A stretch of DNA of 64,000 bases from Candidatus Acetothermia bacterium (GTDB lineage Bacteria; Bipolaricaulota; Bipolaricaulia; RBG-16-55-9; JANLFV01), in the NCBI GenBank assembly GCA_024653345.1, contig JANLFV010000002.1, forward strand, positions 130,830 to 194,829, in the 5' to 3' direction. The position numbers were made by a program, and so were the translations under genes. Positions 16,555-24,005 of this stretch are shown one piece after another; position 1 is the first letter of the stretch, and every line of letters starts with the position of its first letter. The notes under the pieces are model-generated. The model was given only the letters and a program-made list of their open reading frames with translations. It did not search any database and was not told where the DNA came from.

Positions 16555-16618
16555 TCTTTCTCCCTTCTTGCTCCAGTTCTTTGCCACTCTACATCAGGAC
16601 CGGCACCGAGTCAACTCT

Positions 16619-18031
16619 CTAGCGAAGGATGAGAGGCCCCGTGAACGCCAAGGCCAGGCCCTGCTCATCGGCCGCGGCGACGACCTCGCCGCTCGCTCGG
16701 CCTTCGGGGGCGATGACCAAGCCGACCCTGGCCGCAGCGGCCAGATCGACCAGCTCACGCGAAGGAAGCGCCGTGGCGGAAGCGAGGACACTCCCTCTCG
16801 CTCGCTCCGCAGCCTTGAAGATCGCCAACTCGGCCGCGTCTAGGAGGCTGGGCTGCCCCGCCCCGAGCCCGACCACGCACTCCTCGCTCACCAGCAGGAC
16901 CGCCTCCCTTCTCAGCCAGGGGAGCGCCTTCGAGGCGAAGAGCCCGTCAGCCCGCTCCCGCGCGGTCGGGACTCGGCGGCTCGCGACCTTGAGCTCGGCC
17001 GTCCTCGGCTGCCCTGCCTCCCGGGCTCGGGCCAGGAGCCCGAAGATCGTCTGTCTCAGCTCCAGCCGTGGCGTCCCTTCGAGAATCTCCTCGCCCCCTT
17101 CCAGAACATGGAATCCCTTCCGCTTCTTCAAGATCTCCAGCGCCCCTCGCTCATAGGCTGGCGCGAGGACGCCGTCCACAGAGTGCCTCGCCAGGAGGTT
17201 TGCCCCTTCCACGGTGACAGGCCGGTTCAGCCCGGCTAGGGCCCACTCAGCCGCCCGCTCGTCTGCAGCATAGGCCCGAGCGAAGGCCTCCTCGATCGCC
17301 TCAGCCGAGGCTAGCCCGCGCGGCTCGCCGTGCTTCACGATCACCGCGGTCGGGCGGTCGAAAGAATGCGGGATTCGTAGCGCGATGTCTACCTCAATCA
17401 TCAGCTCATCGGAGAGCGGGGGACCGTGAAGCTGGCGGGGGAGCTTCGCTTCGGCATGCTCGCTGTAGAGCGCCGCAACCAGGGGAGCGTTGGCCTCGCG
17501 GAAGCCCAGCACTCTGGGGTAAGCCAGATTCAGTTGGACCGGGAGCGGCTCGCTCGCGAGGTGCTTGGCGATGGCGGCGGCATGGTAGACCACGGAGTTG
17601 AAGGCTCGCTCCGCAAGGCGATCCGCGGTCTCAGGGCTCAAGGCCCCCCTCGCACGGAGCTCCTCCAGTATGGCACTGTAGTCTCTGGGGTCCGCCAGAG
17701 TCGCTGCCGAGCGGCGGTCGCTCGCCCCGGCTATGAGCAGCGTGAGGGTGTCCAGATCCTCCGGCCTGAGCAATGGCTCGTGCAGGGAAGCTCGTTCACC
17801 ACTCAGGGCAGCTAGGTTCACCACCGCGAGCTGGACTTCGCCCCGGCGAACCGCCGAGATGGCCGCGGACAGGCTGGCGACAACCTCAACCGGCAATCCC
17901 GCGCCGCGGAGGACTAACCCCGTCTCCCCGGTCGCGATCAGCTCGACTCCTAACTGATCCAGGCCTTGGGCTAGCTCGACCAGGCCGGCCTTGTCTGCCA
18001 CACTGAAGAAGGCTCGCTTCACCACGATCAA
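16619..18031 (-). CDS. PurH-like protein lacking catalytic motifs
   Basis: A 470-residue protein that aligns along its length with bifunctional PurH (AICAR transformylase/IMP cyclohydrolase): N-terminal KRAFFSVADKAGLVELAQ, middle VIVKHGEPRGLA, and end GLGAGQPSLLDAAELAIFKAAE, AADEQGLALAFTG. Key motifs are lost. The stretch with KTLHPxxHGG of the cyclohydrolase is deleted (about 40 residues), RYGENPHQ is replaced by REANAPLV, KHxNPCG by KHGEPRG, KSNAIV by RREAVL, and SDAFFPF by SATALPS. The reading frame is intact. The TTG at 18031 has GGGAGG 8 bases upstream. It is probably a pseudoenzyme or has a new role; whether it still makes IMP is doubtful. Confidence 0.8.
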   Translation of the reverse strand: MIVVKRAFFSVADKAGLVELAQGLDQLGVELIATGETGLVLRGAGLPVEVVASLSAAISAVRRGEVQLAVVNLAALSGERASLHEPLLRPEDLDTLTLLIAGASDRRSAATLADPRDYSAILEELRARGALSPETADRLAERAFNSVVYHAAAIAKHLASEPLPVQLNLAYPRVLGFREANAPLVAALYSEHAEAKLPRQLHGPPLSDELMIEVDIALRIPHSFDRPTAVIVKHGEPRGLASAEAIEEAFARAYAADERAAEWALAGLNRPVTVEGANLLARHSVDGVLAPAYERGALEILKKRKGFHVLEGGEEILEGTPRLELRQTIFGLLARAREAGQPRTAELKVASRRVPTARERADGLFASKALPWLRREAVLLVSEECVVGLGAGQPSLLDAAELAIFKAAERARGSVLASATALPSRELVDLAAAARVGLVIAPEGRASGEVVAAADEQGLALAFTGPLILR

Positions 18032-18051
18032 TCGCCGCACCTCCCGGCGGG

Positions 18052-18081
18052 AGCATAGCTTGAGAGCCGTTCCTAGCGCAA
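18052..18081 (-). promoter_or_regulatory. Promoter of the PurH-like gene
   Basis: On the minus strand TTGCGC (18081-18076) and TATGCT (18057-18052) with an 18-base spacer lie just upstream of the TTG start. Confidence 0.45.
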
Positions 18082-22866: not shown

Positions 22867-22929
22867 GGTAGTCCTCCTGCTGGGTGCAGATGGGGTGGAG
22901 GGGAGCTAAGATGTCCAGGGTGATCACTC

Positions 22930-24005
22930 ATGCGGACAATCAAGAAGCAGCCTTGTCCCCATCCCGACTGCCCGGACTATGGCTCCTCCACGCAGGTCAT
23001 CAAGGCCGGCAAGGACAAGCGGGGGCGACAACGCTTCCTCTGCAAGCGGTGCGGCCGCTACTTCTCCCCCACCAAGGGGACTCCCTTCTACCGCTTGAGA
23101 AAGCCGAAGAAGGACTTCCTGGAGGCGCTAGCCATGCTCGCCGAGCGGAACAGCCTCGCTGCGGTCGCCCGGATCAAGGGGGTCAAGGAGGAGACGGTTG
23201 CCCGCTCGCTGGAGAAGGCCGGACAGCACGCCCAGGAGGTGGAGGAGGCCCTGCTGCGGGGCTTCCATCTCTCCAGAGTCCAGCTGGACGAGCTGTGGAC
23301 CTATGTGGGGGACAAGGGTGGAAAGGGGGGTATCCCGAGACTCAAGAGACAGGAGGGTTCTGGAAGGCCACGGCCTTCGATCCAGAGAGCAAGCTCAGGG
23401 TAGCCCGTGCCGTGGGCAAGCGGGATCAAGGGCTTCGGGTAGCGCGGCGAGCCGGCAGTGGGGAGCCACCGGTGCTCTTAAGCGATCAACTGCCGGGCTA
23501 CGAGGAGGCGATCGTGGAGGTCTTCGGGGAGGTCCCGCCCTACCGTGGGCGAGGGCGGCCACCGACGAAGAAGCGGGTTACACCCCAGCTGCGCTATGGC
23601 CAAGTGGTCAAGCGGCGAGAGCGGGGGCGGGTGGTGACGATTAGTGAGCGGCTCGTCTTCGGCGAGGGGGAGCAGGCGCGGCAGGCCTTCGGAGGGCGGG
23701 TGAGCACCTCCGGGGTGGAGCGGACGCAACTGACGAGCCGGCAGAGCAATGGGCGGCTGGTGCGCAGGACGCTCTCCTTCTCCAAGAGCCGGGAGATGCT
23801 GGAATGGGCCTGTGCCTGGGAGGATCTGGTCTACAACTTCGCCAAGCCAGTGAAGACGCTACGGATCCCTCTTGTTCAGGGACAGCAGAAGTGGCGGGAG
23901 CGGACGCCGGCGATGGCCGCGGGGTTGGCAGATCATGTCTGGACGATCAGGGAGTTGGTGCTCTTCAGAGCACCAACTCGAGCCTACCAGCACCGAAGGG
24001 GGTGA
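22930..24005 (+). CDS. IS1-family transposase in two frames (probable -1 frameshift)
   Basis: The first frame (22930 to about 23325) encodes a zinc-finger N-terminus (CPHPDC, CKRCGRYF), a helix-turn-helix region and the first catalytic Asp in QLDELWTYVGDKGGKG. The second frame continues with YPETQETGGFWKATAFDPESK, the second Asp in LLSDQLPGYEEAI and the Glu in GVERTQLTSRQSNGRL followed by SFSKS, ending at 24005. A_AAG_GGG (23322-23328) at the junction would let the ribosome shift -1 into the second frame. About 359 residues result. A one-base insertion in the G run that kills the gene is the alternative. All DDE residues are present. Confidence 0.85.
23952..23979 (+). terminator. Hairpin at the 3' end of the IS transposase
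   Basis: A perfect 12-bp stem (GAGTTGGTGCTC and its complement) with a TTCA loop lies inside the last codons of the transposase. It may limit read-through into rsmA or affect translation of the element. Confidence 0.45.

Follow-up and report, generated by a model that had tools for sequence, protein, structure and literature searches.

A PurH-like protein of a Candidatus Acetothermia bacterium as a probable pseudoenzyme retained after loss of the purine pathway

The gene at 16619-18031 on the reverse strand of the window, by which we mean the whole 64,000-nucleotide stretch of Candidatus Acetothermia DNA analysed here, probably encodes a PurH-derived pseudoenzyme of a lost pathway, retained in a non-catalytic binding or scaffold role. 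Enzymes are expected to disappear together with their pathway; here the enzyme of the final step appears to have outlived the rest, with its active sites lost and selection on it persisting. PurH would thus have had, or have gained, a second role, which can now be searched for without interfering enzyme activity.

The frame runs for 470 codons without a stop from a TTG at 18029-18031, and its GC content by codon position is of the coding type across the entire gene, the N-terminal part included; a chance open frame was ruled out by homology and codon bias. An antisense frame (16629-17156, forward strand) was also rejected as a gene, since its divergence mirrors that of its complement and the antisense reading carries no coding signal. 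The protein matches Pfam MGS (E=1.4e-7) followed by Pfam AICARFT_IMPCHas (E=3.9e-49), which is the usual order of PurH, and its best match in the PDB is Mycobacterium tuberculosis PurH (E=2e-42), the top PDB matches being almost all PurH. Its bit score is 240.6 with NCBIfam NF002049, below the equivalog cutoff of 402, and 234.7 with TIGR00355, less than half of the cutoff of 528. The protein is acidic (pI 5.8), and a basic, RNA-binding-like composition was not seen. A preliminary description of this DNA, made from its letters, had proposed an end-to-end PurH relative, which the Pfam and PDB matches bear out, and an open frame of 470 codons with a good Shine-Dalgarno sequence, which is present as GGGAGGTG before the TTG. 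The good promoter that it also named is weaker, as a promoter scan of the window scored nothing ahead of the gene on its own strand, and the candidate in Table 1 was picked out by eye only. The propeller gene that follows may be transcribed on its own, as suggested by a promoter-like site kept in the sister species described below. Elsewhere in the window (22884-24005), inspection by eye showed frames that overlap and whose translations resemble zinc-ribbon and transposase sequence, possibly a fragmented IS1-type element, beside an rsmA-like gene.

Table 1. Features of the PurH-like gene and its surroundings (positions count from the first nucleotide of the window)
Feature	Position	Strand	Basis or remark
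Putative PurH-like pseudoenzyme gene	16619..18031	-	470 aa, TTG start, stop codon within; GC by codon position 0.76/0.49/0.80, as in neighbour genes
MGS-like (former IMP cyclohydrolase) domain, N-terminal	17795..17986	-	Residues 16-79; Pfam E=1.4e-7; missing in sister gene
Approximate point of in-frame deletion of about 31 residues (GRVKTLHP segment)	17858..17872	-	Alignment with canonical PurH
AICAR transformylase-like domain	16817..17707	-	Residues 109-405; Pfam E=3.9e-49; kept in sister (L020)
KHGEPRG, former KHxxPCG motif	17315..17335	-	Lys233-His234 present in both sister species
Shine-Dalgarno sequence GGGAGGTG	18038..18045	-	From sequence; 6 nt upstream of TTG start
Possible promoter TTGCGC-18-TATGCT	18052..18081	-	By eye; like TTGCCA-18-TATGCT of sister
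Promoter-like site of next gene (Vgb_lyase-like propeller protein)	16586..16614	-	Conserved in sister

For the comparison of motifs, the protein was aligned with canonical PurH from other families of the same order, and the residues of the PurH/ATIC motifs that we take to be catalytic are those presumed so for the family at large. In the cyclohydrolase part, about 31 residues with the active-site segment GRVKTLHP are deleted in frame, and the DIGGxxLxRAAAKN stretch reads DLDTLTLLIAGASDR, in which the DIGG...KN motif is not recognisable. In the transformylase part, RYGENPHQ is replaced by REANAPLV, KHxxPCG by KHGEPRG, KSNAIV by RREAVL, SDAxxPF by SATALPS and SAFGG by RAAEW, so that none of these motifs is intact and a Lys-His pair remains with scattered other residues; the usual C-terminal end of PurH (FRH or FKH) is missing. 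Both ancestral activities would accordingly seem to be lost. The preliminary description had listed the KTLHP deletion, the replacements other than RAAEW and the lost C-terminal end, all of which the alignment confirms. Its statement that nearly all catalytic motifs are lost holds for the losses but is slightly strong in its "nearly all", given that the protein retains the Lys-His pair, the GxGxGQ loop and 71 of the 121 columns that are invariant among close canonical relatives. The loop, Asp257 and Lys233-His234 are present in both species of the genus.

The other species is Candidatus Acetothermia bacterium RSWS19 (phylum Ca. Bipolaricaulota; JAPWVC010000004.1; 73% complete), which shares with the window the gene order PurH-like protein, Vgb-lyase-like propeller protein, LeuD. 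Its PurH-like protein aligns only from about residue 160 on, with 50% identity to the window protein; the gene lacks the entire N-terminal domain, and the order of MGS followed by AICARFT is not found there. It is preceded by a promoter-like TTGCCA-18-TATGCT (scored by the scan), AGGAGGTGA and an in-frame TTG that opens an intact frame of 314 aa, and the frame farther upstream has no coding codon bias. The leaders of the two genes are alike by eye, from which we infer that the N-terminal domain may have been lost in place. Truncation by a transposon, suspected from an ORF at L020:934-1245 (reverse strand), was rejected, as this ORF has no Pfam match, no coding bias is found upstream and the gene has its own Shine-Dalgarno sequence and TTG. 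A short octopine dehydrogenase-like frame, seemingly deleted internally, lies upstream of the sister gene (L024:5454-5852, reverse strand), so that rearrangement of the locus on this flank is probable. A scan of the genome contigs for further family members gave the sister only, and when 100 genomes of the phylum were searched, the divergent clade comprised just these two proteins.

The window protein is the sole PF01808 (AICARFT) protein of its genome (1.71 Mb, 31 contigs, marker-gene completeness 92%), and the second, canonical purH for which the preliminary description had proposed a search is not found in that genome. PurC, PurD, PurE and PurP were likewise searched for in this 92% complete genome without success, and the two proteins with an AIRS domain, judged from their sequences and not by profile, look like HypE and ThiL, which leaves no PurM or PurL. 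HisA and HisF were looked for in the same genome and were not found; there is therefore no AICAR derived from histidine synthesis and, with the pur genes gone, neither known source of AICAR remains. An archaeal PurP standing in for PurH was ruled out, PurP being absent. PurA was found, as would fit an organism that relies on purine salvage. In the sister genome (73% complete), the search covered PurC, PurD, PurP and HisA/HisF and found none of them, and there are just two AIRS-domain proteins. It is likely that the pathway genes, which could sit in unassembled parts, have truly been lost in the genus, because several are missing in both members and a completeness score of 90-93% is normal for this order. 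In families f3 and f4 of the same order, which have canonical purH, the pathway is mostly present; purH and purC are both missing in much of the class. A search of the literature found nothing relevant about pseudoenzymes derived from purH or about purine auxotrophy in the phylum. With purC, purD, purE, purL and purM missing, the suggestion that the protein regulates purine synthesis is not supported.

Other arrangements were seen in related genomes. In one genome of the same order (G005), a canonical purH ends a run read as hisG-hisD-hisC-hisH-hisA/hisB fusion-hisF-hisIE (L034:2828-10674), no purC, purD or purL was found in the genome, and this purH may turn the AICAR released by histidine synthesis back into IMP. 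A second (G002; L057, contig C50) has PurC, PurD and PurL/PurM-type proteins, no AICARFT protein and no PurP; its purH may be missing from the assembly, or the pathway may have an unknown end. In some genomes of the same class, from families f8 and f9 (L059 and L060 in G032 and G033; also G029 and G045), archaeal-type PurP, often as two adjacent genes, was found with no PurH.

In a tree, the window protein and its sister branch together with 100% support, and the long stem leading to the pair measures 0.82 substitutions per site. The 121 columns invariant in the canonical relatives compared include 52 kept in both species, 16 with the same new residue in both, and 24 with a different new residue or a gap. 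Because of the 16 identical replacements, among them SAFGG to RAAEW, KSN to xxE and GK to GP, PurH activity was probably lost before the two species split. The dN/dS (NG86) is 0.44 for the C-terminal domain; the propeller gene has 0.28 and LeuD 0.15. In a codon model that used corrected frequencies, omega=1 was rejected (2dlnL=101 overall, 23-51 per third), the value of omega itself being imprecise with synonymous sites near saturation. Simulated neutral decay produced approximately 1.6 to 3.5 stops per lineage, with P <= 0.04 for zero stops in both; neither species has a stop, the frame is continuous and the gaps are whole codons only. These tests apply to one species pair and to the C-terminal domain, the N-terminal 160 or so residues having no close comparator. 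A pseudoenzyme is expected to have replaced catalytic residues in a kept fold and to have been under purifying selection after the loss; the former is found here, with the fold taken from alignment-guided models, and the latter is found for the C-terminal domain of this one pair. The preliminary description had judged this to be no ordinary dead gene, had named a pseudoenzyme among the possibilities and had proposed dN/dS among relatives as a check; the open, stop-free C-terminal domain of the sister, under purifying selection after the catalytic changes, supports a pseudoenzyme over an ordinary dead gene.

The comparison of predicted structures with PurH had also been proposed. The AlphaFold2 models of the window protein (pLDDT 78, pTM 0.60) and of the sister (pLDDT 80, pTM 0.78) both match the PurH fold, the sister with a TM of about 0.77 by query length, which is support and not proof, since the alignments behind the models contained canonical PurH and the fold may be inherited from them. 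Methylglyoxal synthase and the allosteric domain of CPSase are further matches of the window protein's model, in which the part remaining after the deletion seems to be a compact MGS domain.

The gene pair could also be a slowly dying relic, two copies at different stages of decay that are still open since G+C-rich DNA gives few stops. The purine pathway is gone, the N-terminal domain is partly deleted in one species and entirely lost in the other, dN/dS is above that of the neighbour genes, and positions lost differently (24) outnumber those lost identically (16). We nevertheless consider such decay unlikely, because neutral evolution is rejected, the gaps are whole-codon with the codon-position bias intact, the start and Shine-Dalgarno sequence of the sister sit directly before the shortened gene, and catalytic changes that predate the split mean that most of the time since has passed without PurH activity. 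It is quite improbable, too, that the transformylase-like domain has become an enzyme for another reaction on an unknown ligand, by means of the Lys-His pair and the Glu that has replaced the Asn. Lys233-His234, the GxGxGQ loop and Asp257 in both species would fit such an enzyme, as would the Asn-to-Glu and FGG-to-AEW changes, which are common to both and thus were fixed in the ancestor, and ForH is a precedent for recruitment of PurH relatives elsewhere. However, a new site that works would be expected to be more strongly conserved than the sequence around it, and the former active-site motif blocks are identical between the sisters at about 19 of 40 positions (approximately 48%, counted by hand), compared with 50% overall, which favours a non-catalytic role. 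Moreover, the two species differ from each other at the RYGENPHQ and SDAxxPF positions, and no pathway neighbours hint at a substrate. The new enzyme on an AICAR-like ligand envisaged in the preliminary description is weakened in the same way, as well as by the absence of AICAR sources, HisF included, and keeps some standing because the Lys-His pair is retained and the Asn-to-Glu change occurs in both species. That the protein is a divergent but working PurH, finally, is very hard to credit: it is the sole PurH of the genome and has kept the Lys-His pair, but no PurC, PurD, PurE, PurL/M or HisF would supply it with AICAR, the cyclohydrolase segment is deleted and in the sister the whole domain is gone, and its score is under half of the TIGR00355 equivalog cutoff.

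Some observations also weigh against the retained pseudoenzyme. With two known species, conservation rests on a single pair; a dN/dS above that of the neighbour genes could also reflect weak constraint; the N-terminal domain proved dispensable in the sister; and with genomes 92% and 73% complete the absence of genes is no proof. Under the retained-pseudoenzyme explanation, the ancestor of the genus would have had a canonical PurH and then lost de novo purine synthesis, and PurH would have been retained while both of its active sites changed. Before the species split, the transformylase site would have lost the SAFGG motif, the Asn of KSNAIV and other invariant residues; one species would then have lost the cyclohydrolase segment and the other the whole N-terminal domain. 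The part still under selection would be the folded, probably dimeric, transformylase-like domain, and it would work without catalysis as a putative scaffold that binds a protein or RNA partner or a small ligand. A more specific version, for which the chances appear low, is that the two proteins represent a family of the transformylase fold, born from PurH after the loss of purine synthesis, whose new role involves no catalysis; such a protein might, for instance, bind ribosomes or other proteins and sense purine nucleotides in an organism auxotrophic for purines.

Among known systems, bifunctional PurH/ATIC (AICAR transformylase-IMP cyclohydrolase) resembles the window protein in end-to-end homology, domain order and predicted folds. 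The window protein differs from it in that the cyclohydrolase segment is gone and the transformylase motifs are replaced, the genome has no detected purine pathway or AICAR source, and the sister has no N-terminal domain. The MGS domain of carbamoyl phosphate synthetase and methylglyoxal synthase are compact, and the N-terminal domain of the window protein resembles them after its deletion, a likeness drawn from sequence and model, but here the MGS-like domain is fused to a transformylase-like domain. ForH (PDB 6nko), which presumably acts in the formycin pathway, is a stand-alone relative of the N-terminal domain of PurH recruited outside purine synthesis, whereas the C-terminal domain is the part kept by both species here. 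The PurH of Methanosarcina acetivorans, together with aEF2, joins two 50S subunits while its active sites are empty (PMC12605026, PDB 9ou7); in this ribosome dimerisation factor of a methanogen the PurH fold is used without catalysis, and the window protein matches it in sequence and fold. The M. acetivorans protein is, however, a biosynthetic archaeal PurH that dimerises via its N-terminal domain (PMC12605026), a domain that is degenerate in the window protein and absent in the sister. We therefore use the ribosome-dimer PurH as an analogy and a lead, making no claim of ribosome binding; as such, the window gene fits the recent report of a methanogen PurH built into a ribosome dimer with its active sites empty (PMC12605026).
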